From Sphaerolaimus hirsutus (lineage: Eukaryota > Nematoda > Chromadorea > Monhysterida > Sphaerolaimidae): a DNA stretch of 64,000 nt. Position numbers and translations under genes: made by a program. Under the pieces are notes generated by a model. The model saw nothing but the letters and a program-made list of their open reading frames with translations. It was not told the origin of the DNA and ran no database searches. The DNA is taken from contig OZ038454.1 in NCBI GenBank assembly GCA_964036195.1, forward strand, positions 26,212,315 through 26,276,314, given 5' to 3'. Position 1 is the first letter of the stretch. Every line of letters starts with the position of its first letter. This document shows, piece by piece, positions 3,695-64,000 of the stretch.

Positions 3695-4842
3695 GTCCAA
3701 AGTAGGGATAAAAGCTTCACATATGATTGTGAAATCGCCCATCCCATGTTGAAAAAATGTTCGAAATGTACTTCAAATGTTTTCGAAGGATGCACGAGTC
3801 ATGAGTTCAAACTTTTACATTTGTCGAAAAAGATTCAGCAACGCATCAATCATTTATCTGAGAAGTATCAAAAAGAGAATTTTAATATTTCGCCCAAGCA
3901 TGTAATCTGACAGGCATGCAAAATGCTGGCATGCAATAATAAAATGTGTAAGAAGTGGAACAAAATACGGGGGTAGAACAACCTTCTTAATTCCACTCCT
4001 GAATCCAGATTTACATTGACTGCGGAATATAGCGCCGCTGAGCAATGCTCATACTTATAAATCAGTTTTAAATTATTGTAGTCATGCGCAGTCTAAGCAT
4101 GAAGCGGCTGCATGCATTATACCATTGATATATTTACATGATTATGTGCCATAAATGTATGTATATAGGTATTTTCAGCTGTAACACCCACCTTTAATTA
4201 CCTTATGCATGCCCAACAAATGTCTACCTAAATATATTTACGTGTGGTTGAATATGGAACATAGGTACCTATGTAACAAACTGATCAGGTGCCAATTTCA
4301 ATCCCTGTAAAGTAGATTGTGAAATGACCTGCAAAGTGTCAATTGTCATGACAAATGGAAAGTAAGGTATCAGTTGTCATGCAATGTTCAGTAATAAAAT
4401 CTTTTCTTTTTTGATTTGATTGACATTTTACATGACGTTTGGCACTTTACATTACACTTTACAGGATCTGGGACTGCCCCCAGAAGCTTTCAATTAGCCT
4501 ACCTACACTCACCAGTTTTCAATTGTAAATTGTAAAACATTGAGGTAAACTGAATGGCGACAAAATGAGACATGGGCACCATTGACTTTTCTAAAGCCAT
4601 GAAACTTTTCATGGGATACTCCAAAAATGTTTCTTCCTCAAAAGAAAAAGAAAAACAAAGAATAACAAAAAACTAAAAAATTGCAAATGGTCGCATAAGC
4701 TCGCGCCCACTTTTACTGTTTTGGGAATGTCTGTGAAATTTTTTTGAAAACTGTTTTGATTGAGATTTCCATGAAATCCATTTTTATAGGAAACCAGCTC
4801 ACAATTAAGCAGTGCTGTTGTGCAATGTAATCCAATTTCACA
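3695..4842. other. Spacer with a palindromic GTCATGTAAAATG-type repeat
   Basis: About 4310-4480 is a member of the palindromic family whose arms carry TTTTACA and end near gggactgccccc; its arms are diverged. The rest is AT-rich with no credible coding frame. Confidence 0.45.
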
Positions 4843-5284: not shown

Positions 5285-5406
5285 TAAATACAAAAATAGA
5301 TATTTTTGGTTGAAGGTGCAACTGAAATTGCACTGATTAGAATAGATATGGCGGGCGTCAATTTTTACTGTATTTATTTATTTTTTGCCAACCTACTCTG
5401 TATGTG

Positions 5407-6855: not shown

Positions 6856-7640
6856 TACAGTGGACATGGACACTTCCTAATCATTAATCATGTTGCTAAA
6901 ATACACTGTGTACACGCCATAGTTGATTCCACCCTTAAAAAATTTACCTATGAAGGCCGAAAAAGCCCCTTTAAAAATGTTTATTGAGAGTGCAAATTGA
7001 ATGCAATGTCATTCAACTAAGATGTCTTTCGCGAAGCGCGTCGATGCCACATCACCGGTAGTGGTTGTTGTTTAGTGATCATTTCTTAAGCTAATCAATT
7101 CACAACCATTGCAGCAATGTGCTATGCATGATATTACTGTAGGTTTTGAGTGATACAGGAAGCAAAAATGACTTTAACACAGTTATTTACATGATGTCCA
7201 TGTTACATGACTAGTCCCAGACCTTGTAAAATTCAAAATGTTATGAAAAGTGTCAAGTTACAATAATAATCATGTAAAATATAAAATTTTACATTCTTTG
7301 TACTGATCATTTGACATTTTCCATGATATTTTACATGATGTTTGACACTTTGCATTGACATTGTTTTGACACAATTTGCATTTTACACGGTTTTTTACAG
7401 TAGCTGGGAGTGGCCCTAGGTGCTTTTTGCCCTAGGAGTGGCCCTAGGCCCTAGGCCCTTTTAGCAATCAACATAAAAGGCTTGTAAATGGGGGATATCA
7501 GAATGAAGGGATGGAGAATACATTTATTTCTTTTGGTGCTAAAAAAAGAATCCTGCTGAACTGAACCAAAAGTCTGATCTTAATTAACTGCTTATCATGA
7601 TACACACCTTATTTCGATGAATTATCCTATTTTAATTAAC
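6856..7640. other. Spacer with a diverged palindromic repeat
   Basis: Roughly 7200-7410 is another member of the TTTTACA palindrome family: a ccttgtaaaatt-like start, tttttacagtagctggga end, and a centre rich in tgtcaagttac and its near complements. The rest shows nothing I can support. Confidence 0.4.
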
Positions 7641-9244: not shown

Positions 9245-10548
9245 CCTCTGCAAGGTTCGATAGATAATAAATCGCTCCACCGGAGGGGTAGATGCCTCGA
9301 CATATTTCGCTCCAGAAAAAACTCGGAAAAAACCTGCCCGACCTGAGGGGGGGGGGGTTCAGGAGATAGTAACCAAAAAAATTTGCCTCCGTGTCCGTGA
9401 TAGATAGATAATTGAGCGCCTCCGGAATAGATAGATAGTTGGGCGGTTTGGGGGGTTACCCGAAACCCCCTTTCCTACAGCTGGCGCAGTCACAGTGCAT
9501 TTGCATCAAAGATTCACACTGGGCCTACTACCACTTCTATTTTTCCATTTTGTTTTATCCAAGTTCACTTCTACGCGCCTGAGCATATGCCGCTTTTGTC
9601 TCACTCGTAGGAGTTTTCCGTGGGGAGCGTACTTTCCTTCAGTCGGTTGACACAAGGAAGTTATTTATGAGGGTGTATTTTCACTGGATCTGGATTCGCT
9701 GACTTTACGCGGGGGAATTGTTCAAGGGGGAGGGGTATCATGAGAACGATCACCCATTGCTATCGCTGTTGAAAGATGCGGCGAAAATTGTCATTGAAAA
9801 AGGGGGGCCACCGCGCAGCGTCGAAATGAAATAAAACGAAATGAAACAGTTCTCAAACACGATAATTTCAGATTTCGAAAACTCATGCAAAAATTTCGCT
9901 GAAAGTACAAGTAAATATTTATAATCCAACTAATATTTACATCATTATTTCACGTCAAAAACCAAAACCAAAACAAGTAACCGTGCCAAGTGAATGCCGT
10001 GGTTTGTGGGACTCAACTCAAAGACTTTATGATCGCCGGTTGGTGCCCACCGGGCCGTGCACAATCATTCGGATAAACAGACGCGGCACACGCGGCCCAG
10101 TTGGCTGCAGGTCGCCGATCGGCATTAATGCGACATTTGGACACACGCGCTAAAATGATATTGCATGGCGAGTGGTGACAGTGGACTGCAAGCAGGGGGC
10201 ACTATTGAATTGGTAAAATGCCATGTAAAATGTTAAATGTTATGCAAAGTGTTAACCCCATTTGCCATTTTACATGACTTTTAACACTTTGCATGGCATT
10301 TGACATTTTACAGTGTCTGGGAGGGAAATAAAAAAATTTCCAGAGCCAGATGAATAAAATGGTAGGTCAGAGACAGAAATCCCAAAGTTGCGGCGCGCAC
10401 ATTGATGAGTCAAAAAGTTGTTAGAAATTTTAAATAACTTTTAGCAAATTAATAATATAATGTACCATATTTCTTCTAATAGAACGGTGTACCCCCCATA
10501 GAATGGCAGGTTCTGGCATGTTTTTGCACTCAAAAAAATAGAAATCAG
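9245..10548. other. Spacer with GATAGATA/GGGCGGTTTGGGG repeat and a palindrome
   Basis: About 9330-9480 carries gatagatagat with a following gggcggtttgggg, a repeat also at 11440-11550 and 22150-22690. About 10205-10325 is a palindrome of the TTTTACA family with well-matched arms (catgtaaaatgttaa and its complement). No coding region is credible. Confidence 0.45.
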
Positions 10549-14750: not shown

Positions 14751-14752
14751 TA

Positions 14753-16654: not shown

Positions 16655-17020
16655 CACCTGGTGCCACTCCCACACGCTGTAAAAGACCCTGTAATATGTC
16701 AAAGACCCCGTAGGCCGTAAAATGTCGTGTGTCATGTAAAAGACCCTGTAAAATGTCATGTGTCATGTAAAAGACCCTGTAAATTGTCAAATGTCATGTA
16801 AAAAAACCCTGTAAAGTGTAATGTGTATCCAAATCTTATTTTTCATATCCAAAAATAAGATTAGGATACACATAACACTTTACAGGGTCTTTTACATGAC
16901 ACAACATTTTACAGGGTCTTTTACATGACACGAAATTTTACAGGGTATTTTACATGACACATAACATTTTACAGGGTCTTTTGCACATTACAGGGTCTTT
17001 TACACATTACAGGGTCTGAG
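16655..17020. repeat. Palindromic TTTTACAGGGTCTTTTACA repeat cluster
   Basis: The left half is a series of gtaaaagaccctgtaaa units and the right half the complementary ttttacagggtctttta units, six or more in all, so the block is both tandem and palindromic. Its TTTTACAGGG words match the acceptor end of the palindromic intron at 54703-55034. It is non-coding. Confidence 0.7.
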
Positions 17021-17096
17021 TGCTCCCTGGCAGACTTCGCAGCTGGAAGCCGACATTTCATGCTCAATGTCAATGCATTTACTCTGTACACGAGTA

Positions 17097-23330: not shown

Positions 23331-23334
23331 GTGA

Positions 23335-25280: not shown

Positions 25281-25284
25281 GAGT

Positions 25285-28761: not shown

Positions 28762-28922
28762 GCCAGGTGCCAATCCCAGACCCTGTCAAATGTCATACAA
28801 AGTGTCAAAAGTCGTGTAAAATGCCCTGCAAAATGGCAACCGAGTTGCCATTTTGCAGGGCATTTTACACGACTTTTGACACTTTGCGTGACATTTTACA
28901 GGGTACGGGACTGCCCCCAGGG
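28762..28922. repeat. Palindromic element of the GGGACTGCC / TTTTACA family
   Basis: Arms of about 70 bases: the left has caatcccagaccctgtcaaa, gtcgtgtaaaatgccctgc; the right has gcagggcattttacacgac and ttttacagggtacgggactg. This is the best intergenic relative of the palindromic intron at 54703-55034: both end in TTTTACAGGG followed by GGGACTG. Confidence 0.75.
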
Positions 28923-34541: not shown

Positions 34542-34551
34542 TTCTGAAAAG

Positions 34552-35049: not shown

Positions 35050-35065
35050 CTGAATAATGGAGAAA

Positions 35066-41991: not shown

Positions 41992-42015
41992 TGAAGAGAG
42001 TACCTGCGTCAACAA
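41962..42015 (+). repeat. 27-bp direct duplication across a gene junction
   Basis: The unit ctgcgtcaacaataatgaag plus agagta occurs twice in tandem with a single difference at its first base. It copies the ATPase stop and the downstream start codon, so the next gene begins twice (ATG at 41991 and again nine codons later) in frame. Confidence 0.85.
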
Positions 42016-44452: not shown

Positions 44453-44756
44453 ACCATTACCGCTCAACAATACAGGAAGCGACAATATGGAACCTCTCTT
44501 GTTATCACCACCTAACACTAAAAATATAAACTGTACCATAAATAAAAAACTAATTGTTCAAGTGGGTATGACGCTAGTTCAAGTGTTAACTGTAATTATC
44601 ATTTTGGTATATATTACCACCCACATGCCATCGAATATCATTGCTGAAAAATCACCAGATATATTAAGAGCTTTCTTGAGAGTTTTCGACAAAAATTCGG
44701 CACAAGAGCACGTTTACGATTTGATATTCGCTAACCATAAAAACTACAGTTTATAA
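44412..44756 (+). CDS. Small single-pass membrane protein of the Polinton
   Basis: 114 residues from the first ATG, with possible later starts at 44442 and 44487 that reduce overlap with the integrase. One strong hydrophobic segment (about residues 50-69, VGMTLVQVLTVIIILVYI) is preceded by a basic stretch and followed by a short helical tail. Small membrane proteins near the capsid genes are seen in several Polintons and adintoviruses; the role here is unknown. Its stop and the next ATG overlap as TAATG. Confidence 0.72.
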   Translation: MLRKTPHQSKMTHEPLPLNNTGSDNMEPLLLSPPNTKNINCTINKKLIVQVGMTLVQVLTVIIILVYITTHMPSNIIAEKSPDILRAFLRVFDKNSAQEHVYDLIFANHKNYSL

Positions 44757-45802: not shown

Positions 45803-45805
45803 TAA

Positions 45806-46261
45806 ATGGATCACCCAGAATCTGAAAAACAGTGTGCAAATATTCACAAGTATAATTATGGGGTATATAAGACACCCGATGCATCATTTTATGAAAAGGA
45901 AATAATGAATAAAGCAAATTTTACCGGTTTAGTAGGATTGGGCCCACCCGGCATCGTTAGCACTAGATCATTGGCAGAACCCATAGTGACCAGTGAAAGT
46001 CAAGCTGCCGTAAAGTCAACAGACGACCCCGCAGAGAAACGCAAGAAAAGACGTAAATATGTAAAAAAGAAGATTGGTAAAGGTAAGCGAACAAACAAAG
46101 GCAGAGGACGGAGGAGAAGGGGTAGAAAGCGAGGCAGTAAAAAGTTTTTACCACCGTGGTTAAAAAAATCTGGCAAAGGAAAAAAGAGAATGGGGAAAGG
46201 GCGTAAAAGGAGGTCGAAGAAAAAGAAGTTTCCCGTATCTATTCCGGTATTCCCACGTTAA
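45806..46261 (+). CDS. Highly basic core-like protein
   Basis: 151 residues in two parts: an N-terminal 75 residues with a hydrophobic GLVGLGPPGIVS segment, and a C-terminal half almost wholly Lys/Arg/Gly (KRRKYVKKK, GRGRRRRGRKRGSKK, KKRMGKGRKRRSKKKK). Such composition suits condensation of packaged DNA, like adenovirus core proteins, or membrane-active minor capsid proteins that are processed by the viral protease. The gene lies three bases after the penton gene and before the major capsid gene. Exact homology cannot be shown by eye. Confidence 0.75.
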   Translation: MDHPESEKQCANIHKYNYGVYKTPDASFYEKEIMNKANFTGLVGLGPPGIVSTRSLAEPIVTSESQAAVKSTDDPAEKRKKRRKYVKKKIGKGKRTNKGRGRRRRGRKRGSKKFLPPWLKKSGKGKKRMGKGRKRRSKKKKFPVSIPVFPR

Positions 46262-46336
46262 CTCATAAACGCTCATTTCCTATATAAGCAGACATACAAT
46301 AATCAAATATTTCACTTTGAGCATTATTTTCAAAAA
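46262..46336 (+). promoter_or_regulatory. Likely promoter of the major capsid gene
   Basis: Most junctions in this rightward cluster overlap or are a few bases long; this 75-base gap is the longest. It contains TATATAAG at 46281-46288, about 50 bases before the capsid ATG, which suggests a separate strong, possibly late, transcript for the capsid and protease. Confidence 0.6.
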
Positions 46337-47785
46337 ATGGCCGCTTCGACAGCAAATATAGATGGATCCACGTTTGCACAACCAGAAACAATTTTGAAGC
46401 AGAAGCCTGACCCATCTTCATCTTTTGTAACATCTGATGAAGTAGAGTATTGGTCAGCACCGGTAATTGATACAACCTTTGTACAATCTCAACTTTTTGA
46501 GGTACCGTTGACGGTACAACACGCAGATTACAACACATCATGGACCTGGACAATAGACACATCTCAGTACTATATAGATTTGTCAAACATTTATGTCCGC
46601 ATGCAATACAAGGTCGTGAATGAAAATGGAACAGATATACCTACCGAGATGCAAATCGGACCGGTCACTGACCCCCCAACCCCAGCGACAAATATATCTA
46701 GCATGGTAGCTTTGATACCAGGTTTCGGCTCAACCTGCTGGCGCACTGTAAAATTATTCAGTAAAGATGCTCTTTTATTGGACATAAACGATAATTACGC
46801 GTACATGATGACCATGAAAAATAAATTATTGCAAAACATGGATGATGTTTACAAGGAGAAAGAAATTTCGGGTTTCTTCAACGAAACGTACACCGATGAC
46901 ATACAAGACCCCAATACCGAAAGTTACAGAAAGAGAGCGCTGCAAATATCAGGTAGCAGCACATGCGTCAGTTATTCGAGACTCGCATTGGATCTGTTTA
47001 CAACCAAACCTAGATGGCCAGCAGGGTATCCACTAACGATAGAACTGATCAGACACAGCGATCGATTTTGCATAGAATGTTTCAATGTACCTGTAGCGGC
47101 GGTTGCGAGGAATTACAAAATAAAAATAATGAGAATACAATTATTTGCCCTACATTTGCAACCCAGCGCGCAATGCGCCGTGGCAGTGGAAAGATCTGCT
47201 ATAAAAAGACCACTCAAACTTCATTTCCTCAATACCCGCGTAATTAGAGTAAACGTGCCCGGTAATTTGAAACAAACATCCCAACAAGCTATTTATGCGG
47301 GTAAGTTGCCGAACTTTTGCATAGTACAAATGATAAGTGGAGACCGATACTTAACCCAAGATGTATTACAAGCAAAATTTGCTTTCAAGCCACACAAAAT
47401 CGAAAGAGCGGCGTTACTGTTCGGGGCGGCCCGTCACCCGATGGTGCCCTATTATTTCGACCGTGACACTGACACCACATCGGATTTGGGATTTCCAATG
47501 GCCTTCTCAGAGTTGTACAGATGCCTAAGAAAGAACTTCAATGTGAAAAATTGTATATCGTACGATGAGTTTAAGTTAAATATGTTCGCTCTAGCTTTTG
47601 ACCCAGTAGTGTGCCCAGTAAATGCTGGAAAAACTGATCTAATGTCGATTGGTTCATTAGGCATTGATTTCTCTTTCCACGAACCAACCCCAGCAGAGGG
47701 TTTAGTTATATTAGTATACTGCTTTTCGATCGCATCACTTCATTTGCATCCAGACCGTACCATTTTGTCAAATGCCAATTATTAA
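46337..47785 (+). CDS. Major capsid protein, double jelly-roll (Polinton/adintovirus)
   Basis: A 482-residue protein with the sequence style of Polinton hexon-like capsid proteins: an N-terminal strand set (YIDLSNIYVRMQYKVV), a conserved-type ALIPGFGSTCWRTVKLF segment at about 127-143, and late strands ending in DFSFHEPTPAEGLVILVY. Trimers of this fold tile an icosahedral shell. With the penton, packaging ATPase and protease it completes the morphogenesis module that lets Polintons be viewed as proviruses. The frame is uninterrupted. Confidence 0.92.
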   Translation: MAASTANIDGSTFAQPETILKQKPDPSSSFVTSDEVEYWSAPVIDTTFVQSQLFEVPLTVQHADYNTSWTWTIDTSQYYIDLSNIYVRMQYKVVNENGTDIPTEMQIGPVTDPPTPATNISSMVALIPGFGSTCWRTVKLFSKDALLLDINDNYAYMMTMKNKLLQNMDDVYKEKEISGFFNETYTDDIQDPNTESYRKRALQISGSSTCVSYSRLALDLFTTKPRWPAGYPLTIELIRHSDRFCIECFNVPVAAVARNYKIKIMRIQLFALHLQPSAQCAVAVERSAIKRPLKLHFLNTRVIRVNVPGNLKQTSQQAIYAGKLPNFCIVQMISGDRYLTQDVLQAKFAFKPHKIERAALLFGAARHPMVPYYFDRDTDTTSDLGFPMAFSELYRCLRKNFNVKNCISYDEFKLNMFALAFDPVVCPVNAGKTDLMSIGSLGIDFSFHEPTPAEGLVILVYCFSIASLHLHPDRTILSNANY

Positions 47786-47802
47786 TTCTTGGCGATATAT
47801 GG

Positions 47803-48366
47803 TTGTGGAAAGGAGGGAGAAGTAGTTGCTTGGATTTGGCAAGGGTAATGGATGTGACAGATATAAACGCTATTATCAAAGGCGACAACACTTTGAGCAA
47901 AAATGGTACCAGATGCATTAATCTAAGTGATAGCGATCTAAATGCAGACATTCTTGTGGGAAGAGGAGCCGTGTGTTTTCTGCAGTACCCCGATTTGACT
48001 TGGGGTCATTTTATATCCATATATAGAATAATGCAAAATCACGTCTTCATTTTTGATTCATTGGGCCGAAGGAACTTATCTCAAAGAGTGATCAGTGATA
48101 TAAAAACGCAATTTGATAAAAGTTGCATTTTTTCATTTAATCATGTTGTGATACAAAAGAAAGCCGCCGATACGTGCGGCTTATACGCTCTTATTTTTAT
48201 AAAATTGATGTGCTTGTGTAAAAAGATTAAGAGTAAAGACTCCGTGTTGCAGGTTATATCACTAATTTGTAAACACGATGTGAAATTTTTATTTTTTGCT
48301 TTATTCAATAAGTTGACGACAACAACAATGTTGTCAAAAGGTGCAAAGGATGTCATATTCAAATAA
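47803..48366 (+). CDS. Adenain-like maturation cysteine protease
   Basis: 187 residues from the first ATG; Met16 (47848) is an equally good or better start. The catalytic set is readable: His69 in TWGHFISIY, Asp85 in IFDSLGR, Gln118 in VVIQKK and Cys125 in ADTCGLYAL. This is the adenovirus protease/Ulp1 fold, used to cut capsid and core precursors during virion maturation; the basic protein upstream is a natural substrate candidate. It is the last rightward gene before the convergent spliced gene, and AATAAA overlaps its stop (48363-48368), giving a likely poly(A) signal. Confidence 0.92.
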   Translation: MWKGGRSSCLDLARVMDVTDINAIIKGDNTLSKNGTRCINLSDSDLNADILVGRGAVCFLQYPDLTWGHFISIYRIMQNHVFIFDSLGRRNLSQRVISDIKTQFDKSCIFSFNHVVIQKKAADTCGLYALIFIKLMCLCKKIKSKDSVLQVISLICKHDVKFLFFALFNKLTTTTMLSKGAKDVIFK

Positions 48367-48414
48367 ACAAATCACTCAAAATCATGTCCTCAAATTATCA
48401 CTTAATTAAAAAAC

Positions 48415-49429
48415 TCAAATCTTCGTCCACTCATAATCGACAGGTAGAGTGCTACTGACACGGCTACCTCTGCGTTGCCTGTCTTCACATTTGTCATTAC
48501 TGCTTTCCACTTCATCCAGCTGCGGCGGGGGTTTGAATGGTCTATCCCAGGGTAAATAAACTTTGTCTTTCGCCTGGGCTTTCATCCTGTTTAGATCGGG
48601 ATCCATCGAGCAACTGGTTGAAATCGGCTCCTTTGGCAAGCAGAATTTTTGGTAAGCCGTCCAATCTCTGAATGTATCGGCACCCGTGAACCAATCGGGG
48701 CAACTGGGTGTGTACCACGAACTACCCCAGTCATCAACACCCCGGTAGCAATAATCATCTGGATCGATATCGTCACCTGCGAGCATCCATGGGTTCTTTT
48801 GATAGCGCGTTGGTGTGCAGGGTGCACATGCACGCGTGCGGGGAAAACTCACCAACTGGGATCGGATTTTTGCCGCTGGCAAAATCCATGCGAGTAAGAA
48901 AGTCGTGGAACTCCCTCTCGCCATTCATATAGTAACTGCTTCGCATGGGTGCATTCGGCGGCAACTCAATCATTTCTGGAACCATGAACTTTTCCAGCAC
49001 AATGTTAGCAATGTGCATTCCACGGAAAACAAAAAACGGTTTCAGTGATAGGTTGAGCAACAATATGCCGCAATTCCCACTGTTGTCGATCAAGTCTGTT
49101 TTGATGAGGTAGGGGTGCATTTAGGTGAGTGTGTCAATAACACACCCAGCTAACTTACCGTTTATAGACACGACGCCGTAGAACAACGCTAGGCACAGTT
49201 GATTGGACACGCGCAAGTATACACCAGTCGGGGTCCTAAAGCGAACATCCAACATTACGTAACAGCGTCCTCCGGGGGGTATGTGATACTCATAGGCAGA
49301 GAAGACGCGAAATCCAACATCATCGTAACGATATATCGGTGCAAATGCATTTGGTGTAATTTTTTGAAATGCAATGTGTTTGGTCCTTTCTCCAAAGAAT
49401 ACAGCCGGGTGAGCGCTCTGCTCAGCCAT
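48415..49429 (-). CDS. Spliced, degenerate dUTPase-fold protein with C-terminal extension
   Basis: Three exons (49159-49429, 48853-49095, 48415-48776) with canonical borders: GTAAGT…CAG and GTGAGT…CAG, introns of 63 and 76 bases, keeping one frame for about 291 residues. The first two exons follow the dUTPase order: a DVGFRVFSAYEYHIPPGG segment, a GVVSIN segment near the motif III position, LIDNSGNCGILLLNL, and FRGMHIANIV in place of the usual GDRIAQL. Key residues of motifs I and II are changed and the Gly-rich motif V is absent; a Trp/Cys/Pro-rich tail of about 120 residues replaces it. It is likely not an enzyme, comparable to the dUTPase-related proteins of herpesviruses, though relatedness is inferred. 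The adjoining array 49540-49719 may control it. Confidence 0.68.
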
Positions 49430-49539
49430 ACCGATTGGTAGGTTGCTTGATTAGTTTACCAGTTGAAATGCGGTGTCATATAAAAGTTTTAGAATGCAAT
49501 GGCGACCCTTAAATATGTTTCAAGCTTTACAATCACCAT

Positions 49540-49736
49540 TGTCACACAACAGCATGTTGTAATATTGTTACAATGTGTCACCCATTGTAAATTTGTTACA
49601 CAGCAAATTTGTTACACAGCAAAATTGTTACACAGCAAAATTGTTACACAGCAAATTGTTACACTGTGGAAATTGTTACACTGTGGAAATTGTTACACTG
49701 TGGAAATTGTTACACTGTGTGGATGCATATAAAAAG
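49540..49736 (+). promoter_or_regulatory. TTGTTACA tandem array and TATA box
   Basis: From 49593 to 49719 eight units of about 15-17 bases repeat: ttgttacacagcaaaa (four forms) then ttgttacactgtggaaa (four forms). Just upstream is gttgtaatattgttacaatg, very like the gttgtaatattacaac of the Polinton promoter region. ATATAAAAAG at 49727-49736 follows, about 100 bases before the rightward ATG. These look like iterated binding sites for one factor. Confidence 0.75.
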
Positions 49737-49836
49737 GCATGTTTGGAAACAGTTTCCTTTCATACGCTTTTCAATCCAGCAAACACACCGATACTCCTGC
49801 ACGCTCAACTACTACTACAACACAACCCACCAGACA

Positions 49837-51845
49837 ATGGCATCTTACGTGGCAGCGAAAATGGCTTCCGCAGCGCACAAAGCCGCCGGAGCAGCTATCG
49901 AAGACCATCTTTTGGGACAGAAACGACCCATCCCCGATGATGACAATGTAGACAGCAATAATGGAGAGGAAGATCAGGAAGTAGAGAAATTAGGCCTCGG
50001 TGGTGACGTACCAGATGAGAGACAGAGTTTAATTGATAAACAAACTCAACAAAATGAAGGTGGGTATGGAGGCATCTATGGACGCGAACGCAGAGAGATT
50101 GTCTATAAGCGAAGAAAAATGAACTTTCCGCTATGCTCAATGTACTCGTATAAATTTCTATCGTTTTCGTTGTGCAGAATTTGTGAAACGCGCACAAAAT
50201 ATTTGCCATCTAAACTGTATTCAGACGACAGTATAGAAGTGCAAGTAAAATTGTGTAGGAATTGCCGTATAAGGCATGAAAAAATGGTGGATGCAATTCG
50301 TCACAGACCAACTACAGGGACAAGTGAAGGGGCGTCCAACAACTCCGCAGCCGGTGCGGCGGCAGACGAATTCGGTGGACGTGGAACCGCCGCAATCCCT
50401 GACCCTCCACACCACAACTTCCAACAGCCACCGCCAGCGAACAAATACGTCAAGAGATTTTAACGAAGGGCCAGTTATCAATAAACTTTTGGAAAAAATT
50501 AAAAAACTCGAGAAAAAAACAAGTGTGGATGATGCGGACGCAACAGCCACAAAGCAGCAGGAAGAAGAGTGCAGCATGGATGTTGACGGAAGCAATGAAG
50601 GAGACGATTGGGACAAAAACAATGAAATGCAAAAAATAAAAAGTGTGTCTACTACCGTGTTACAACCGTGGGGCGTAATTTATCAGTGGGAGGGTGACAG
50701 GGTGGTTGAGAGCGCGCTCGAACACACTTGTATTATAGAACCCCGTCAGTGTAGTAACAGCATTCCATGCAACCATTGCCAGTGCGGCAGTGGTGAAAAA
50801 AACAAAAATTCTCACAACCCTACAACGGTCGTTGGCGACGCCACCCCGGGCGGCGCCGGTTGCGACATTGTCGTAAACATATATAATTATAAATAGTCAT
50901 TCCCTAATTTTTCAGAAACCTTCCCAAAATTCTGGTTCAACAGAAAAGGTTCCATTTTCACTCTATGTAACCCAAAAGATTTTTATCTTCGAGCGGACAC
51001 ATCGCCCATTCAATTGGATCAGGTGAAACAGCTTCTGTACCTCGTCGTCAACGATTTTCTAGATATACGAGAAATGACCTTACAAAGTCTCATGGAAATG
51101 AACTTGGCTACGCACATTGAGTGCTTTCAGGCCCTGCGGCACAAACGTTGCCCTTATTCGGGTCGCCCAGGTTTTCTGCTAGCTCAAAGATTTCTACATC
51201 TGCAGTATGCTTTGCTACCATTTCAAAATATGTACTTGATGGGTATTACAACGACCATCAATCTTGAGACCCTAATTAGATCTTGGCCAGACTCGGAAAT
51301 AAATTTGCAAATAGCCAGAAATTACATCGCCGACAAATACGCCGCCCTGGGCAGCAATGATATTGCCAATGGTATTTATCACTCCTGGCCGCGCGATGGT
51401 AAAATAGGCCCCTGCGATGGCAGAAAGGCGCTAGTGAAGGCTTGGCAATTGGTTGGCTACGCCTGCCACCCATTATTCAGCAGACATTTGCGCAATAAAG
51501 AGCAGGACGATGAAGAGGCGGTGGTGTGCGATGGAGACTGCCTCTGGCACAGAGCCAGTAATTTTTTCTTTCTTTTTTTTTGTAAAAAATGTAAAAAATG
51601 TAAAAAATGTAAAAAAGGCCGCGCCTAAAAACCTATTTTTTACTTTCCTAAACCTATTTTTTACTTTTAAACCTATTTTTTACATTATTTTTACTGTCAG
51701 ACGCCTGCGTCTGACAGTAAAAATAATTTTTCATCATCACCACCACTCAGTGAGGCGGGCAAATGTCACACCCACCGACAACGGCGACCCTCCCGACAAC
51801 AGCTGCTCCGGGGATGGACAGTTGGTGATGGCAACCCAACCGTAG
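49837..51845 (+). CDS. Spliced gene of unknown function with a Cys-rich motif
   Basis: Starts MASYVAAKMASAAHKAAG. The first frame (49837-50463) has an acidic stretch, then a zinc-ribbon-like CRICETRTK…KLCRNCR. Coding then appears to move to the +1 frame (from about 50464) with a coiled-coil KLLEKIKKLEKK and an acidic region, either by an intron I could not fix, a shifted frame at TTT-TAA-C, or a decay indel. That frame meets TAG at 50894-50896 but an intron 50793-50915 (123 bases, GTGAAA…TTTTTCAG) removes it and keeps frame. The long 50916-51557 exon is helical and Leu/His/Cys-containing. A last intron 51558-51750 (GTAATT…CTCAG) leads to a 31-codon end at 51845. I recognise no family. Confidence 0.55.
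51684..51727. repeat. Perfect 21-bp hairpin inside an intron
   Basis: attatttttactgtcagacg plus c, two spacer bases, and the exact complement. It lies in the predicted last intron of the 49837 gene, after (tgtaaaaaa)n and three aaacctattttttac units that also pair with each other. The AT-rich arms and T-tract could equally be a transcription-related structure. Confidence 0.8.
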
Positions 51846-53024: not shown

Positions 53025-56000
53025 TTACCAACCTGTTTCAAACTCTTCGCCCGCGTCCACCATGCCCGATGTGCTGCTCATGTAGTAGCGGGGTCTGGAG
53101 CCCCTGCCGGCCGGGCGCTGCGCCGCGTCGGTCACGTACGCGGGGCGGCTCATGCTGCTCATGCCGGCACCGGAATAGGACCTTTGGATGGTGCGCTGGC
53201 CTGCGCCGATGGTGCGCTGGCCGGTGCCGTACATCAACTGGTCGGTGCAAAGGGCTGCGGGGTCAATCTGGACCAGTCCCAATCCCTCTAAAGTTTTTGA
53301 CCGTCAAAATGTCAGGTAAAACATTTGAGCGTCAAAATGTCAAGTAAAACAAAACTTTATGCTCGCGTTGACATTTTGACGCTCAAATGTTTTACCTGAC
53401 ATTTTGACGGTCAAAAACTTTAGAGGGATTGGAACCAGTACCTGCTCTTGGTGACGGTTAGCCATGCGGCTACTGGTGCGGCTACCGGTGCGGCTACCGG
53501 TGCCGGTGCGACTGCCACCCACGATGTTGCTGTGGGGGGCTGCGGTGTCGATCTGCAAGCGGTACAGATTATGTTTTACTTGACATTTGGTGTTCAAAAA
53601 ATTTACAGGGTTTGGGACTGTCACCTGCTCGTGGGACCGATGCGCGGCGCGGCTGAAGCTGCGCACAGACTCCTCCCTGATGGACATGTCCAGGAGGTTT
53701 TCTGTGGGGTGGGAGGTGATATTTGGGAATTTAATTCAAATGTGCATAATTGAATTCAAACCTACCCTGCATGCTGGTTACGGTGTTGCACACATTGTTA
53801 TGCTCCTTTGTTAAGGAGTCGATGCAATCGCGCAAGATGCCCAGCTCCGATTTCAGGGCGCCGGTTTCCTGGGGGTTCGAGCCATCGCAACCTTGTTGCA
53901 CTATTTACACAAGCACACCCTTCTCTGCGTGGCCCGGTGACAATAAATTCTCAACTGTGTAGTATGTGTAAACTGTAGGGTGGTTAGCGGGCTGTTGAAG
54001 TGACACATATCCATACCCGATTATCGAGTCGGGTAAAAATTAGCCCGACAGTGGGTGAAGCGTAACCGATTCCGACTAGACGGAAATTTTTTCCGTATTG
54101 ATTCGATATTTACAGAAATGCATACCGATTATCGAGCGAGTCGGGTAAAAAAAGAAACCGATGGTGGGTGAATCGCCACCGGTTCCGACTAGTTGATGAA
54201 ATTCCCCGTATTGATTCGATATTTATCGAAAACATAAAACAGACAACAAAAATTTTGTCTAGTTGGGGGTTGTTGCACTCTACCCGCCGTCGGGCTAGTT
54301 TTTACCCGACTCGGTAATCGGGTATGGATACCTGTCGCTTCAACAGCCCGCTAACCACCCTACAGTTTACACATACTACACAGTTGAGAATTTATTGTCA
54401 CCGGGTCACGCTGTGAGGGATGCGATTCTGTAAAATAGCAAACCGGTCGGCGGTTTGGTGAATGTGACCATTTCGTGGGAGCCGGCGCCGCGACCAGTGC
54501 CGCTGTCGGCGCCGCCTACCAGTGCGTGTACGGGTGGGCGGTTGGGTAGGGCTGGGTGCGTCGGGACGTTTTGGATCTGTGCCTGGGGGTTTTGGATCTG
54601 CGTCGGGGGGTTTTGGATCTGCGCCGGGGGGTTTTGGATCTGTGCCGGGGTGTTTTGGTTCTGTGCCAGGGGTTCGTTTCGCTCTGAATGCAGTCCCGCG
54701 CCCTGTAAAACGTAAAGTAAGGTCTCAATTGTCATGTAAAAGTTTAATCGAATGCAAAAAATCAATTTTTTATTTTGATTGGTATTTTACGTGATTTTGT
54801 GCTTACAACAATAAAAACTTTCATTCTATTTTTGCATTTTATTGGTATTTTACATGATTTTGCACTTAGAACCGTAAAAAAGTGAAAACTTTCATACAAT
54901 TTTTGCATTTGATTGGTATTTTACATGATTTTGCGCTTACAACCGTAAAAACTTATTCTATTTTTGCATTCGATTAAACTTTTACATGACAATTGAGATC
55001 TTACTCTACGTTTTACAGGGCGCGGGACTGCCACCTGGTTGGGGGTCCTGTCGCTCTGCCGAGGGGTCGTGTCGCCTGCGCGCGCGGTTGGTGCACCCGC
55101 AGCCGCAGCCGGTTTTCTGCATGCGCTGTAAATTTTGGGGGTGTTTGTTTATAGAAGTTGTAGTTGGATATTTGCCAATTTGGTACTCACTAGAGCTATC
55201 ATGCGGAGTAAGCAGACCAAGCCGATGACCAACAAATTGGAGCCGGCTTGAAACCCCGCGTCCTTTGTTTTGTAGTACCAATCAGTCATGTACTCTTCAA
55301 TTGTCATGACGGCGGAGAAAATCAGATCAAGTTTGGAGTTGATCTGATACAGGGTCTTCTCGATGGCTTGCAGCTGCGTGAAATGCAGATTTGTTTGACA
55401 TTGTAAGAATGGTAGCTAGGGTTGGTTTTTAAAAATTTCAAATTTGAAAGTGTGTCTTAAAATTTTATTTTATATTATTTAATGTTGATTAAGAATATTT
55501 TAATTATTCAAAATTTGTTTTTTTGTTCAAGGAACTTTTAAATTTAGTCTATTTACCAACCCTAGCTATTTTTCACAGCACCCCACGGCGCTAACTGAAA
55601 TGCTATTCTATTTCTATTAGCTATTGATGTACCTGTTGCAACACCTTCTCATCTGGTAGAATGTCACCACCATCACCATCACCCAATGTATGCACAGCAC
55701 CAGCACCAACACCCTCCAGGGTGTATTTTGCGCTTTTCCTGCTGACCACTGATGCAATATGTACAGAATCAGTGGGTGCAGTCAGTGCGCTTTCCGGGGT
55801 AGCTGTAGTGGTTGATGGAATAGCGTTAGTGGTTAGTTCCATCACCACTGTAGACATGGCTGGTGACGTAGAGCTAAAACATCAAACAACTTAATATAAC
55901 TAAATGCGTTATTCACCGTCAGAATCAAAAATTCAACACTGGATCAACTCACACTTCTGTGTGTGCGTACAAGTTTGGTGCAAACTGGCGACAGAGTCCT

Positions 56001-57645
56001 TCAAAATAATCTTTTCTGTCCAAAACAGTGCGCACGGCTGCCAGAAATTCGTCTTCATTTTTCAGAGGGGGGGTGGTGGGTGTTGTGGTGTCAGGGGTGG
56101 GTTTGGAGGTGGTTGAAGTGGCAGGTATAGGAGGGGTGGTGGGGGGTGTGGAGGTGGGGGTTGCGGTTGGTGTGGGGGTGGGGGTTGCGGGGGACGTTCC
56201 GTTGGGTGGCGACGGAGAAATCTAAAATGATAGCTAAAACTCAATATCCCATATATACATTTGATGAAAAACATTAAACAAACCCAAATTATACTTGGGC
56301 TGCATCGCCGGCATGGTTCTGGGGTGGGGCAGGGTTCGGGTTTGGGGCAGGGGCAGTTTCTGGCGCATGCGTCACATTCACAAGTAACAGAGCGAACAAT
56401 GCACCACTTTACACCACCCTCAGGGGCATTGTACGGCACCATCCGTTTAGGATTGTTGATCAGTGTTGTTGTCAACAACTCAGTACTGGCAGTTGTAGTT
56501 ACTGACATGTCAGTAGTAGAAGTGGTGGTGAATGGACTAGTGGTAGTGGTGTCAGTAGAAGAGTGCAAACCAGATAACTCACCACTCAGCGCTGGAGGCT
56601 GCACATTTTGTTTTGATTTTTTATGTTTACTTGATATTGTAAAAAATAGAAAAAGCTGTACACACATTCAGTGGGAATTGTATACATAACCGGTTGGAAA
56701 TATTAGCGCCACCCTGCGAGATTGGCCCCACACACGCTAGTTGACATTGACACAAATGTCAACTGGTTCCGATCCCAAATCAATACTTGCTGGCGAACCA
56801 AGGATCGACCTTCAGATACAAGCTTGAAATTGGCCCCGGAACCAGTTGACATTTGTGTCAATGTCAACTAGCGTGCGTGGGGTCATTTGAGCAAGACTGG
56901 ATAATTTAACTGCGGTGAAAGCTCGCCGGGTGGTGCTAATTTTTCAGCCGGTTATCCTAGAAAAGTCGCTGAATGTGTTCCCTGACTGCGGGCTTTTTCT
57001 ATTTACTGCACAAATAATGAAATAATACCAACCGCGAGTGTGGTTTTCTCCATGGCGGCTGTATATTTTCGGAGGTCGTGGGTGGATGCGGTGAAGGCTG
57101 CCGGTGGGGGGTTCTTGCTCCCGCTCTGAATTTGGGTTCATTTTTTTAAAAATTTTGTGAAAAAAACGGCGCATAAAAGGGTTTTGAATTTGAGTTCATT
57201 TTAAAAAATTTGTAAAATAACAGTGCATAAAAACAGTTTTAAATTTGGGTTCATTTTTAAAAACTTTTATGTAAAAATAAGCGCATAAAAAAAACGTTTT
57301 AATAAACCAACTGCTACCATGCAGTTGTAGTTATCGGCATACGGGAATTTATCTTTGAGCTGCATGCAGAGCGGCTGGAATGGGGCGCTGATAATTAGCG
57401 TCCTGATTTTGATGTCCTTGCTGTATCTGCGTTGAAAAATAAGTTTTTTGGCAATTTTAATGATATTTCGATTGAAAATTAAAATTTTCTCACTGCGATT
57501 CGTCAAAATTCGATTTGACGTTGCAGTGCGCTTCGATGCCATCGCACCGGCAGAGAACCCCGTTGCACGGGGACCTGGCCAACGTGGTGGTCACCAGCGC
57601 CACGGCGGCAAAGAGCGTGCAGAAAAACATGCGGGGCAGCTCCAT
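53025..57645 (-). CDS. 13-exon gene for a predicted secreted or membrane mucin-like protein
   Basis: Exons by GT/AG and phase: 57494-57645, 57318-57426, 57007-57125, 56284-56629, 55953-56221, 55633-55873, 55191-55373, 55035-55125, 54410-54702, 53766-53868, 53625-53701, 53442-53552, 53025-53267; every phase joins, giving about 778 residues. Exon 1 encodes a clear signal peptide (MELPRMFFCTLFAAVALVTT) then CNGVLCRC. Exon 4 has Thr/Ser-rich mucin-type sequence and a Cys cluster (CECDACARNCPC), exon 5 a Pro/Thr run, exon 7 an amphipathic helix and a hydrophobic LLVIGLVCLL, exon 8 a GCGCGC plus Arg cluster as found after membrane spans. Exons 9-13 are Pro, Gln, Arg and Ser-rich, with a short coiled coil in exon 10. 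A type I glycoprotein is likely, of host or viral origin. Donors at 56283 and 54409 are weak. Confidence 0.55.
53268..53441 (-). repeat. Palindromic intron (174 bases) of the mucin-like gene
   Basis: Arms of about 64 bases (ccaatccctctaaagttttt…aaatgtca and complement) fill most of the intron. The donor CAG/GTACTGG and acceptor CCAG/ATTGACC sit at or beside the arm ends. Flanking exons both start ID-x-AA, see the related finding. Confidence 0.75.
53933..54405. repeat. Long inverted repeat within an intron of the mucin-like gene
   Basis: Arms of about 115-130 bases: cccggtgacaataaattctc…gttgaagtgacac and a near-perfect complement, with an inner region of cccgattatcgagtcgggta words. The donor (GTGACC at 54409) lies within the terminal word of one arm. 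The cccgattatcgagtcggg core is shared with the 58-kb foldback cluster. Confidence 0.8.
54691..55030. repeat. Palindromic intron element (CAGTCCCGCGCCCTGTAAAAC ends)
   Basis: Arms of about 70 bases run from cagtcccgcgccctgtaaaa to gaatgcaaaa, and back in complement. The acceptor TTTTACAG (54703-54710 on the minus strand) is part of the arm itself, and the outer GGCGCGGGACTG of that arm is read as exon. The donor GTGGCAGTCCC overlaps the other terminus. Tandem ttgcattt…gattggtattttac(a/g)tgatttt units fill the centre. Confidence 0.8.
56724..56884. mobile_element. Palindromic MITE with CACACGCTAGTTGACA ends, intronic
   Basis: Arms of about 60 bases begin ggccccacacacgctagttgac and end in the complement; same family as 17756-17978. 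It lies in the predicted intron between exons 3 and 4 (56630-57006) of the mucin-like gene, showing that recent MITEs do land in these introns. Confidence 0.75.
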
Positions 57646-58013
57646 TCCTAAACGGTGTGATTCAATTTGATTAAAATAATGGGAAAGAGAAAATATTGGC
57701 AATTATTAAAGATAAAATTCGACTTGAATGCAATTTACATGTTCTTTTACATTTTTTTAGACACTTGCAATAATTGTGTTTGATAACAAATTTTAGGACC
57801 CCCAATCATGTGCGAAACATTTCCCATTTTCCACTTCACGGGCATCGCTACAAAATCACCCACCGTGCGCAGTCACCGACAGTTTGGCAAACGGCCAGAA
57901 AACGCGTGCGTCCGACAGCAGCTCGGCGTGGGTCGACAGCAACTCGGTGTCGCTGCGGCGGCGCTCTGCAATATGTACACATTTATTGTGTATTTTGGCT
58001 TTGCCCGATTATC
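57646..58013. other. Upstream region of the mucin-like gene
   Basis: The sequence ccgtttag directly before the start codon on the minus strand could be an acceptor for a 5' untranslated exon. GC-rich frames at 57774-58085 are probably fortuitous. No clear TATA box. Confidence 0.35.
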
Positions 58014-58738
58014 GAGTCGGGAAAAATCGAACCCGACGCCGCCCGACGGAGGGCGAATCGCGGCCGGACCCCGCTAGGTGGGTAAAAATACAATATCAAA
58101 TAAAACGCGGACTTTTCTGTGCGATTTTGCCCACCTAGCAGGGTCCGACCGAGATTCGCCCTCCGTTGGGCGGCGTCGGGTTCGTTTTTTCCCGACTCGA
58201 TAATCGGTTTAGCTACCATTCATTTGAGACAGCAAATGCTGTGTCATATTTTTGGGGCGCTTTGCTTTTCAAGCAAGTGCAGTTTTATTGAGTCGGGAAA
58301 AAACGAACCCGACGCTGCCCGACGGAGGCTGAATTGCAACCGGACCCCGCTAGGTGGGTAAAATCGCACAGAAAAGTCTGCGTTTTATTTGATATTGTAT
58401 TTTTACCCACCTAGCGGGGTCCGGCCGCGATTCGCCCTCCGTCGGGCAGCGTCGGGTTCGTTTTTTCCCGACTCGATAATCGATTTAGCTATCATTCATT
58501 TGAGACAGCAAATGCTGTGTCATATTTTTGGGGCGCTTCGCTTTTCAAGCGAGTGCAGTTTTATCGAGTCGGGGAAAAAATGAATCCGACGCTGCCCGAC
58601 GGAGGGCGAATCGCTGCCAGACCCCGCTAGGTGGGCAAAATTACAATATTAAATGAAACGCGGACTTTTCTGTGCGATTTTGCCCACCTAGCGGGGTTTG
58701 GTTGCAATTCGCCCTCCGTCGGGCAGCGTCGGGTTCGA
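58014..58738. repeat. Three foldback units with CGAGTCGGG ends in tandem
   Basis: Inverted-repeat units at 58014-58207, 58286-58482 and 58562-58738, each with arms such as cgagtcgggaaaaaacgaac, gcccgacggagggcgaatcg and ccccgctaggtgggtaaaa. Between them a 78-79 base spacer (agctaccattcatttgagac…) is itself duplicated (58208-58285, 58483-58561), so the block is a tandem array of about 275-base composite units, the last truncated. The core also occurs at 53990-54330. Confidence 0.85.
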
Positions 58739-60010: not shown

Positions 60011-60710
60011 CTACATCATTCTAGAACGGTTCATGTAAAAATTAATCCAAACAGCCACAAAGTGTATCAATAAAAAGAACTCCCCTGATGAAGTGTCAAA
60101 CATGGCTATCTGAATTATAGCACACACCCTCATAACACCTTGTGATGTGGAACTAGGTCTAGCAAAATTTGTTGTGATATATTTGTGTAGCACAGGTGAG
60201 TTATGAAAAATAAACATATCATTCATTGTCCTCAAAAATGCAACTGCTGCGCCTTCCATTGACCATATGTTTGTATATATGATATCTCTAAGAATTCTGC
60301 TCGTGTGGAATGTATTTATTGCATCATATATGAATGTAGCATTGATGCTGGCTTGTATGGAACCATTGGCTGCCAGCATTTTGCCTAGGCCAACCATTGA
60401 AAGAAAAGCCGCTATTGTATTACCAAAGGCCATCTGTAAAAAATCTATTTTTGATATTTTTATAAAAATTATCCAAAAACTTTCTAACAAATGTTGTCAA
60501 TATTGCAGCATCGTCCAAAACCAGTAAATTGGCCATTTGTGGCGCCCAAGTTGTAAATCTTTCAAGGGCCCCCGACCTAATCAATTGCCCCAACGTTCTG
60601 CGGACCGATAGACATTTTTGTTAAATATAAAATGCTATTGATATTCTTACATTGAAATGTAGATTTGTTTACCTGAACTGGTTAAATGTATTCATTTGCC
60701 TAATATCCAT
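60011..60710 (-). CDS. 3-exon gene for a helical protein of unknown function, 189 aa
   Basis: Exons 60673-60710, 60489-60597 and 60011-60433 join in frame through short introns of 75 (GTAAAC…CGCAG) and 55 bases (GTTAGA…TTACAG). The start MDIRQMNTFNQF is the first in-frame ATG. The last exon has several hydrophobic helices (AFGNTIAAFLSMVGLGKML, MRVCAIIQIAM, FFLLIHFVAVWINF) that could be membrane-embedded or the core of an all-helical bundle. No signal peptide and no family I recognise. It is transcribed in the same direction as its two neighbours. Confidence 0.55.
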
Positions 60711-60722
60711 GTCCCTGAGGTA

Positions 60723-60853
60723 ATCCCATACCCCGTAAATTTCAAAATAAATGCCAATTAATAGTAAATTAAAATGTTATTAAAGTCCACTAAATTGTGT
60801 TTTTGAATTTACTATTAATTGGCATTTATTTTGAAATTTACGGGGTATGGAGT
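60723..60853. repeat. 53-bp inverted repeat upstream of the helical-protein gene
   Basis: The arm ataccccgtaaatttcaaaa…gtaaat (about 60727-60775) and its exact complement (about 60804-60852) surround a 30-base centre. It ends 13 bases from the start codon, so it lies in the likely promoter or 5' leader. Confidence 0.8.
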
Positions 60854-60999
60854 TACCTTAAATATGGGTGTGACTCTACATTTACATTGCCACTTATTGT
60901 ATTTATAGTTGGGGTCACCATTCGATAAATTGCTTGATAACAATTTTGCCGTCTTGCAGGATTATTTTGAGGCCTGTTTGGGTTTAAATTAATAATTTT

Positions 61000-62014
61000 T
61001 CAGAAAGTGCATAGTTTCCAATATTGATATACACACATTTGTTGTTGTTGTTGTTGTACATTTGGCACCATTTGTTGTTGCAGTTGTACATTTGGTACCA
61101 AATTCACAGCTTGTGTATTTGGCAGAAATTGATTCTGCTGCTGAGCATTGTAGTGAAAGGGGGCCGCATTTGGATTTAACCTCCTATGTAAATTTTGGTG
61201 TAGAGGGATGTTAGAAAAAGTAAAAAAAATAACAAACTGTTGCTGTTGTTGTAGTTGTGTCTGTCCTATTTGTGGTTGGTTTTGTTGAACTGTACCTTGA
61301 TGACCTATTGGTTGGGGTACACGGTTTGTGGGGGGGATAGTTGATGACATTCTACTAGGTCCGGGAAATAATTCATATCCATTTGGGAAATTTTGTGGTA
61401 GCTGCATGTTTTGTCTATTGTCCTGTGAATACGGTAATATTTTTATTTACGCATACATTTATCTTAAAATCGGTACCTGGGGGTTTTGGTCTACTACCAC
61501 TGTATGTACAGTGGGTGCATTTTGTTGCCGGATTGTTGGTCTCTGAAAAATGTGACTTATTTAAAAAAATTTCTCTGGTAAAGTTATTATTATAATTACC
61601 TGATTATTTTGTAGATTTGGTTGTGTATTTTGGTTCACATTTCCTCCATTTTGGTGGTTTCTGACATTTCTTATAGAATTTGAGCTTGATGGGATGTTTG
61701 GATCTTCCTCTTGGTGAATTTCATTTACATCAGCATTTTCTAACAGATCTGTAATTATTTTACCCTATGGTTTTACAATTTAATCATTCATTTTATAAAT
61801 AGATACTAAAAAACCTGGATTAAAATCTGTGAAAAATGTGCTGATATTATCAAACTGTTTTTCATATGCTCCAGATTTGCCATTTGGTCTATAAATAATT
61901 AAAAATTAAATATTCCAATAATATGAATACTTGAAAAATTAAAATAAAAACTTACTGTTTGATAGTGTATACAGATATAATTATTTGAAGTCCGATAAAA
62001 ACTTTTAGGTGCAT
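61000..62014 (-). CDS. 5-exon gene for a secreted Gln/Asn-rich protein, 256 aa
   Basis: Exons 61956-62014, 61815-61888, 61600-61748, 61477-61542 and 61000-61422 join in frame. Borders include GTAAGT (61955), TTATAG, TTACAG, CCCAG/GTACC and TTCACAG; the donor GTTTTT at 61814 is weak. Exon 1 encodes a signal-peptide-like MHLKVFIGLQIIISVYTIK. The rest is low-complexity: an acidic NEIHQEEDPN part, then Gln, Asn and Pro-rich sequence with QQQQQ runs. Such proteins are often secreted matrix or adhesive proteins, but I assign no function. The introns are 66-72 bases except the first three-part region, all short. Confidence 0.55.
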
Positions 62015-62779: not shown

Positions 62780-64000
62780 ATGGTTGACGAAAGTGTGCAA
62801 AAATTCAAAGAGTATCTTGCTGGGAAAATAACATTTGAAGAGCTAAAAGCTGACATCAAAAGGCGAGATCTAAAAAGAAAAATTATGGCGTCAGAAAAAA
62901 AGAAATGTGGTAAAAAAAACAGACTTGAACATGAAAGTGATTCCGAGTTAGTTTTTTTCTGGGACGTTTATGCATTGCACATGTCATTTCCTATTTTATA
63001 AATGTAAGCTTGACACTTTACATGACATTTAGGAGACTGCATAAATTTTAGGTGACAGTTTCAAATTCACTGTAGATTACAATTGATAACATTTGATATC
63101 ACCTTTATTTACTCACCATTATTTAGGTATGTGTACGTGCCTACATCCCCGACACCTCGTGACTATTCTGATGACCAGGCTTGCAATGACAATTCCTCGG
63201 GACCTAGTTTGGCATATGTGCCAAGTTCACCTTATCCAGATTCTCCTCCCGTGCATGAAACCGCCACCGCTTCTACAGCTTGTTCAAATGATGGTGGAAA
63301 TTGGTCACCTGTATCTGTTGAGTGAGTATAGATAAAAGTTTGGGTTGACATTAAAATGTTTGAATTTTATGTATGGATGACTAAAAACCCCATGTAAAAT
63401 GTATAAAATGTCACTCAGAAAAATTACTTTTATGGTGTGAAAATAAAATGTTTCTAAACAGGTATCCAATGGCTTCACCGCCGTATATTTTTGATGAGTC
63501 AAACAAAAAAGTGATGGTGGGTGATGGTGAAGCTGCTCAAACATCGTGTGGTGGAATGGCTGGTGCAAATGTGTCATGTGCTGATGTACCAATTACAAAT
63601 ACGGTGGTTGAGGGTGCAGAAATCGTGTCTTTTCTGGACATGGATTCTTTGAGTGATGAGAGATTGGCATCTGAGGCCGCGGCTTTGAGTGTCGCTGCAG
63701 AGAATGCTATGGCTGCAGCGACAGCAGCTGTAGAATTGCGCCGACGGAAACGAAAACACAGCCCCATACCGCTGCCTTCGATTGGGTTAGTGAGGGTGTG
63801 TTTTAAACCCTTCCTACGGTCCCTCTTGTGTGTACATAATTGCATTTTAGTGATTGAATTTTACATATACTTTTGTATGTAGTTGCGTACTGGTATTAAA
63901 ACGTATTTGAATGTATTTTTGATAATAATATCATTGCAGCGAGCTGTTGTGGCCGTCATCGATGGGTACAAATCCTGCACCAGAGTCGAGCTCAAATGAG
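62780..64000 (+). CDS. Multi-exon gene of unknown function, 3' end beyond the window
   Basis: Exons 62780-62946, 63127-63321, 63462-63785 and 63940-64000 (open at the edge) join in frame; all three introns are phase 2 (GTTAGT…ATTTAG, GTGAGT…AAACAG, GTTAGT…TTGCAG). The N-terminus is Lys-rich and helical (MVDESVQKFKEYLAGKITFE, KRRDLKRKIM). Exons 2 and 3 both begin by completing a Glu codon and a Tyr, then Pro/Ser-rich sequence (YVYVPTSPTP, YPMASPPYIF), as though copied from one another. Exon 3 also has an Ala-rich helix ending RRRKRKH, a possible nuclear localisation signal. No recognised domain. Confidence 0.6.

Follow-up and report, generated by a model that had tools for sequence, protein, structure and literature searches.

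Among described systems, the closest to the locus studied here are the introners, which have been reported in 175 of 3,325 genomes, with target-site duplications (TSDs) in 49 of the 130 and terminal inverted repeats (TIRs) in 72 of the 177 families assessable for each feature (Gozashti et al. 2022, PMC9860276). According to the accessible sections of that survey, some families carry one splice site on the element and co-opt the other, which may be either site, from the TSD; in the case drawn in its Fig. 2C, which has a 4-bp TSD and lacks TIRs, it is the 5′ site that the element brings and the 3′ site that it co-opts. In fungi, recently gained introns contain remnants of PIF/Harbinger elements, as the available text of PMC8476143 describes, and this was the clearly relevant case that we found, within the openly accessible literature, tying introners or intron gain to PIF/Harbinger. 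A further point of reference is NuwaI of the PHIS superfamily, for which the part of the description open to us (PMC4482050) gives a TSD of 5′-CWG-3′, TIRs that usually begin with GGG, repeats of 12-61 bp, and animals as the only hosts reported.

Here, we analyzed a 64,000-nt stretch of the genome of the nematode Sphaerolaimus hirsutus (the window), in which some copies of an inverted-repeat element, termed family X, coincide with predicted introns. Quite probably, family X is a MITE, a foldback DNA transposon that is not autonomous and gives rise to spliceosomal introns through insertion at CWG and subsequent splicing, and it appears to be an introner of an already known kind. We considered and rejected the description "categorically new" for this family, since introners with TSD-derived splice sites are already in print (accessible sections of PMC9860276). 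What is possibly new here is the source of the family, as its CWG duplications, and the GGG start of some of its repeat ends, resemble those of NuwaI. The coordinates of the elements and genes are collected in Table 1.

Table 1. Elements, introns, and hand-read genes in the window. A slash marks a border of the element or intron; positions count from the first letter of the window.
Feature	Position	Strand	Length (nt)	Borders and remarks
Element/intron A	54684..55034	-	351	CAG/GTGGCAGTCCCGCGCCCTGTAAAA ... TTTTACAGGGCGCGGGACTGCATT/CAG/AGC
Element/intron B	53268..53441	-	174	GAGCAG/GTACTGGTTCC ... GGGACTGGTC/CAG/ATT
Intron C	53553..53624	-	72	GAGCAG/GTGACAGTCCCAAACCCTGTAAAT ... TTGCAG/ATC
Element D	16661..17033	+	373	CACCTG/GTGCCACTCCC ... 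GTGCTCC/CTG/GCAG/ACTT; possible CTG duplication
Element E	28767..28920	+	154	GGCCAG/GTGCCAATCCC ... GGGACTGCCCC/CAG/GGG
Element F	4289..4483	+	195	GATCAG/GTGCCAATTTC ... GGGACTGCCCC/CAG/AAG
Decayed copy G	7209..7419	+		Flanking trinucleotides CAT and TAG
Decayed copy H	10196..10343	+		Left end CAG/GGGGCACT...; another CAG at 10341-10343; right end too degenerate to place
Element/intron Y (other family than X)	60715..60856	-	142	TTTAAG/GTAACTCCATACCCCGTAAA ... TTTACGGGGTATGGGATTACCT/CAG/GGAC
Large-intron palindrome, unrelated family	53904..54434			Arms 187 nt, 85%; CCCGATTATCGAGTCGGG-type repeat inside; ends away from eye-read splice sites
Contrast MITE, CACTAGTTGACA kind	56723..56885			In intron of the same minus-strand region as the 53-kb gene; ~120 nt from each eye-read splice site (not frame-checked)
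53-kb gene, seven hand-read exons	55373-55191, 55125-55035, 54683-54520, 53868-53766, 53701-53625, 53552-53442, 53267-53033	-		Carries introns A, B, and C
Gene Q, nine hand-read exons	62014-61956, 61888-61807, 61764-61600, 61542-61477, 61422-61238, 61183-61037, 60973-60857, 60714-60673, 60597-60434	-		Carries intron Y

Introns of the 53-kb gene and of gene Q

The earlier note on this DNA had proposed three palindromic introns in the 53-kb gene. Inverted repeats were found at all three places, and at two of them the entire intron is an element, namely introns A and B. The interval 53268-53441 (intron B) had its borders exactly right, on the minus strand. For 54703-55034 (intron A), the element intron was upheld with a corrected border, 54684-55034, as TTTTACAG, formerly taken for the 3′ splice site, gives way to the frame-fitting acceptor CATTCAG/AGC at 54684. 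The third intron, 53869-54409, was not confirmed: in our own frame reading, a donor placed at 54409 results in phase 2 where the following exon (ETGALKSELG...) calls for phase 0, and the arm stops ~35 nt from the acceptor. This misfit of frame and borders led us to discard it as a family X introner, and the palindrome at 53904-54434 looks like a different MITE sitting within an intron. Two further introns were absent from the earlier note, namely C (53624-53553, a truncated copy) and Y (60856-60715, in another gene and of another family).

Intron A (GTGGCAGTCCC...GGGACTGCATTCAG) has the 3′ end TTTTACAGGGCGCGGGACTGCATTCAG/AGC, and intron B has the 3′ end GGGACTGGTCCAG/ATT. Each comprises a single inverted-repeat element with CAG at its end, and no other intron sequence; the arms are (i) 92 nt long and 87% alike in A (54690-55031) and (ii) 68 nt long and 99% alike in B (53276-53435). 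Intron A lies in phase 1, where the joined exons are open in a common frame, whereas a read-through of the intron runs into stops in every frame (4, 10, and 8); intron B lies in phase 0, between ...RHQEQ and IDPAAL.... Of the two TSD copies at intron A, we take the exonic CAG (55035-55037) to be the first and the 3′ CAG of the intron (54684-54686) to be the second.

Intron C resembles B over 49 nt of the left arm (81.6%) and, as the reverse complement, over 51 nt of the right arm (84.3%), and by this likeness it corresponds to the left end of a B-like element, the remainder of which would have been deleted. The borders of C and B are also alike, with 9 of 10 nt matching in the left exon flank and 17 of 19 nt at the right border (CAG and 16 nt of exon). 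Because the flanks are alike, C is probably a sister of B that arose through one event and later segmental duplication, rather than by an independent insertion, which leaves two independent intron positions of family X in the window. The lengths of introns A, B, and C (351, 174, and 72) are all divisible by three, so that keeping or skipping them leaves the frame unshifted and alternative exonisation could be permitted; intron C, being stop-free in the frame of the gene over its 72 nt, could also be read as exon.

In gene Q (60434..62014), whose N-terminus, MHLKVFIGLQIIISVYT, looks like a signal peptide, the nine-exon frame spans 342 codons with no stop; this model includes one donor picked because it leaves the frame open, and its last exon is read as far as 60434, short of a stop. 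Intron Y, at 142 nt, stands out against the other seven introns of the gene (42-75 nt), and it consists of a whole palindrome (arms of 57 nt, 95% alike) between in-frame exons. Its ends, GTAACTCC...GGGATTACCTCAG, resemble those of family X, its flanks are AAG and CAG and hence not identical, and no second copy of it was seen in the window, where only a 19-nt match to C was found. Judged from its sequence, Y represents, in another gene, an event of this type. Taken from the open reading frames only, element ends thus lie at splice sites in coding sequence in A, B, and Y, and at the 5′ side in C.

Copies of family X and their CWG flanks

The heptamer CAGTCCC/GGGACTG occurs 10 times in the window, whereas 30 simulated sequences that preserve its dinucleotide composition had 3.0 occurrences on average and at most 7; four of the 10 places (871, 33079, 33055, and 19613) lie outside family X. 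Two relatives that the earlier note had placed between genes were confirmed as family members, at 28763-28921 (E) and 16.66-17.03 kb (D), and one further copy was found at 4289-4483 (F). Elements E and F both start with GTGCCAAT and end with GGGACTGCCCCCAG, with CAG directly before each; their right ends are 83% alike over 60 nt, and the likeness reaches the terminal CAG in both and ends there. Intron A is alike to E and F up to within 6 nt of both of its ends. Element D (16661-17033) has a second MITE nested inside it. No open reading frame of at least 180 codons overlaps any copy in the window; inverted arms, direct CWG flanks, and the lack of coding capacity are features of a DNA transposon of the MITE type. 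An eye-read intron of a plus-strand gene, at 62950-63127, contains GACACTTTACATGACATTTAGGAGACTG, perhaps a decayed right end of family X.

Direct CWG repeats outside the inverted repeats were found in five of the seven copies with two recognisable ends (CAG and CAG in A, B, E, and F; CTG and CTG in D), and, by the flanks, they would be as left by a 3-bp target-site duplication. Copy G, with CAT and TAG, is a miss for this rule; H, with CAG on both sides and an unplaceable right end, and C, with its right end deleted, were excluded from the count. At two fixed random positions, CWG equalled CWG in 59 of 200,000 draws, and when both borders were free to slide by 8 nt, a match arose in 318 of 4,000 random pairs. 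A sliding scan of 22 of the 29 palindromes in the window (seven short or overlapping ones being omitted) gave five matches, three of them A, B, and E. The remaining two were palindromes of different kinds, one at 13045-13367 and one at 300-588, where the repeat seems to be inverted. Scanning the inner arms of D and H gave no match. As the right-hand CAG of A and B is also needed for splicing, these two introns are weaker evidence for a TSD.

The cleanest evidence comes from F. When F is removed, stops occur in all six joined frames over both 60 and 90 nt on each side, so that F is not a coding intron and its CAGs are not explained by the splicing of one. For E, one of six joined frames is open over 90 nt on each side, and for D, two plus-strand frames are open, so that E and D may or may not interrupt coding sequence. 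The introner reading of the earlier note is supported for two of the three introns that it named, and for C and Y, which it did not list, with element ends at splice sites, in-frame exons, CWG flanks in five of seven copies, and F between non-coding flanks; it does not extend to the third, which belongs to another family.

The non-coding flanks of F also bear on the possibility that ordinary MITEs were secondarily inserted into pre-existing introns, which were then trimmed until little of the original intron was left. MITEs of other families do occur inside introns here (56723-56885 and 53904-54434), and many introns of these genes are short (in gene Q, 42-75 nt), so that scant host sequence would remain in any case. 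However, A, B, and Y have no host intron sequence beyond the element and the terminal CAG, both splice sites fall at element borders in three introns, which would need a repeated coincidence, and F has the same ends where no coding intron lies. We thus regard secondary insertion as unlikely, and prefer the creation of introns by family X itself. The palindromes of other families that served as controls (53904-54434, 56723-56885, and 58005-58737) do not have their ends at eye-read splice sites.

The window holds several other repeats. At 58005-58737, nested palindromes of the CCGATTATCGAGTCGGG kind, with arms of up to 198 nt, are similar to a repeat inside 53904-54434; MITEs with common ACACACTAGTT or ACACACGCTAGTT ends lie at 17767-17963, 27167-27405, 30865-31121, and 56723-56885; repeats with TACCGTATTTCCTCGAAATACCCCC-like ends occur in several copies (4843-5286, 14751-15187, 21.9 kb, and 26.86 kb); and tandem-repeat tracts fill 23188-26215, with periods of ~116 nt (23.3-25.3 kb), 30 nt (25.2-25.7 kb), and ~27 nt (25.7-26.2 kb). 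The stretch 33858-51628 is a polinton/adintovirus-like element, with (i) a DNA polymerase B reading frame at 36729-41240 (PF03175, E 3.4e-29), which had just three distant matches at E ≤ 1e-10, none with an informative name, (ii) a frame at 41158-41991 with weak AAA matches, (iii) an integrase-like frame at 43325-44452, whose integrase-core match is below the Pfam cut-off, and (iv) further frames with no Pfam match. Rfam at gathering scores and a tRNA scan in bacterial mode found nothing in the window. Two IMG/VR motif matches were rejected as relatives of family X, having no further resemblance within the 601 nt around each; the search for related viral loci gave one pattern match and no relative.

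Hairpins, splice-site strength, and a candidate route to new introns

In RNA folding, introns A, B, and Y gave z-scores of -17.4 (100 shuffles, none as good), -24.7 (200 shuffles, none as good), and -15.9, respectively; in all three, the arms pair and the splice sites lie at the base of the hairpin. Among the 7265 GTs of the window, the donors of A, B, C, and Y rank in the top 20.7, 39.6, 12.4, and 2.9%, and among its 5771 AGs, their acceptors rank in the top 26.9, 91.3, 33.7, and 33.8%; for D, E, and F, the donors rank at 39.0, 25.3, and 25.3% and the acceptors at 27.3, 36.2, and 47.1%. Ordinary introns of the same genes have medians of 4.9% (17 donors) and 8.9% (15 acceptors), their sites being the hand-chosen training set, each scored with itself left out. 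By these ranks, the splice sites that the elements carry are of moderate strength and fall short of those of the ordinary introns. Read on the opposite strand, E has neither a GT start nor an AG end, so that the element should act as an intron in one orientation only. The outermost bases also differ between the ends, with GTG or GTA at the donor end and GGG (E, F), AAT (A), GAC (B), or GGA (D) at the other.

Moderate scores also speak for the reading that the 53-kb exons are no real gene, but chance GC-rich frames or a pseudogene, and the elements plain CAG-target MITEs whose match to splice sites is a mere look-alike of CAG/GT and CAG. An element that targets CWG and starts with GT mimics splice sites wherever it inserts, and searches with the predicted 53-kb protein gave neither a Pfam family (E ≤ 1) nor a homologue (E ≤ 0.01). 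Against this, the seven exons (53033..55373), of which the third has an uncertain donor at 54520, join into 964 nt and 321 codons with no stop in frame, as compared with 13 and 10 stops in the other two frames. Their GC by codon position is 0.57/0.49/0.77, with the high value in the third position, and introns A and B have 0.31 and 0.39. Further, Y sits in a second, well-formed frame, that of gene Q, although its protein, too, has no Pfam family and, over the residues searched (240-342), no homologue. We consider it quite improbable that these exons belong to no gene. That the introns were copied by segmental or tandem exon duplication, not by transposition, is most improbable for the set as a whole. 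B and C do lie at matching places of two similar segments with like flanks (EQ/IDTAA and EQ/IDPAA), and for this pair duplication stands, but the flanks of A, Y, E, and F, compared by eye over 30 nt, are unlike those of B and C and unlike one another.

For intron creation by family X, the following route can be proposed. A transposase from elsewhere would insert the element at CWG and duplicate that trinucleotide, as the flanks suggest. In the GT-first orientation, the upstream CAG and the GTG or GTA of the element would then form a donor, CAG/GT, and, at the other end, the last bases of the element and the duplicated CAG would form an acceptor, CCCC/CAG, CATT/CAG, or GGTC/CAG; these junctions are visible in the sequence. 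Splicing would take out the element with one CAG and thereby exactly restore the reading frame present before insertion, and the frames agree with this. Element D would be an exception to exact restoration, as its acceptor GCAG is placed 4 nt past the putative CTG duplication. The computed hairpin, with both splice sites at its base, may help the pairing of the sites.

The likeliest source of such an element would be a NuwaI-like transposon of the PHIS superfamily, with the terminal GGG kept at one end of some copies and GTG at the other. More tentatively, and as a possibility rather than a probability, a CWG-duplicating NuwaI-type PHIS transposon might be one base change away from an introner (from CAG + GGG to CAG/GTG ... 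CCC/CAG), and this genome might show that step, with a non-coding copy carrying ready splice sites and a second palindromic family nearby doing likewise. The origin of new introns has long been in question. Should the CWG link prove correct, it would name a transposase group, and the single substitution that turns a cut-and-paste transposon into an intron maker, and it would predict intron gain, at CAG, in genomes with NuwaI-type elements.

Comparison with known systems

The likeness to NuwaI (PMC4482050, in its accessible part) lies in the CWG flanks, with CAG in four and CTG in one of seven copies as judged by flanks only, and, at some ends, in a GGG start, E and F reading GGGGCAGTCCC inward at the right. 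These two right ends, and H at its left end, begin with GGGG, but left ends are GTG in A and C-F and GTA in B, and right ends are AAT, GAC, and GGA in A, B, and D. Unlike the NuwaI elements described in that part, E and A have repeats of 78 and 92 nt, which exceed the reported 12-61 bp, and their other end begins with GTG. No DDE transposase with a Myb/SANT partner, the NuwaI type, was found among the 11 protein readings and four short ones from the window that were scanned against Pfam, and no autonomous copy of family X was seen in the window. The fungal introns of PMC8476143 are comparable in having PIF/Harbinger-class sequence within gained introns; in that case the remnants are recognisable, and a CWG duplication, or a structure in which the element is the intron, was not encountered in the available text.

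Family X differs from the case of Fig. 2C in PMC9860276 in its 3-bp TSD (CWG) and in its foldback structure, where the repeats span much of the element, a comparison made from the published description. It shares with the introners of that survey, so far as its accessible sections describe them, the short non-autonomous element, the identity of intron and element, and, as in many of those introners, TIRs or a short TSD. In Amoebophrya, the introner elements are likewise described, in the open part of PMC7789003, as hairpin introns with an inverted repeat at either end, and with 3-5 nt direct repeats spanning the exon/intron borders. Their borders are chiefly non-canonical, and that part reports no family-specific repeat motifs, whereas family X combines canonical GT-AG borders with a common motif.
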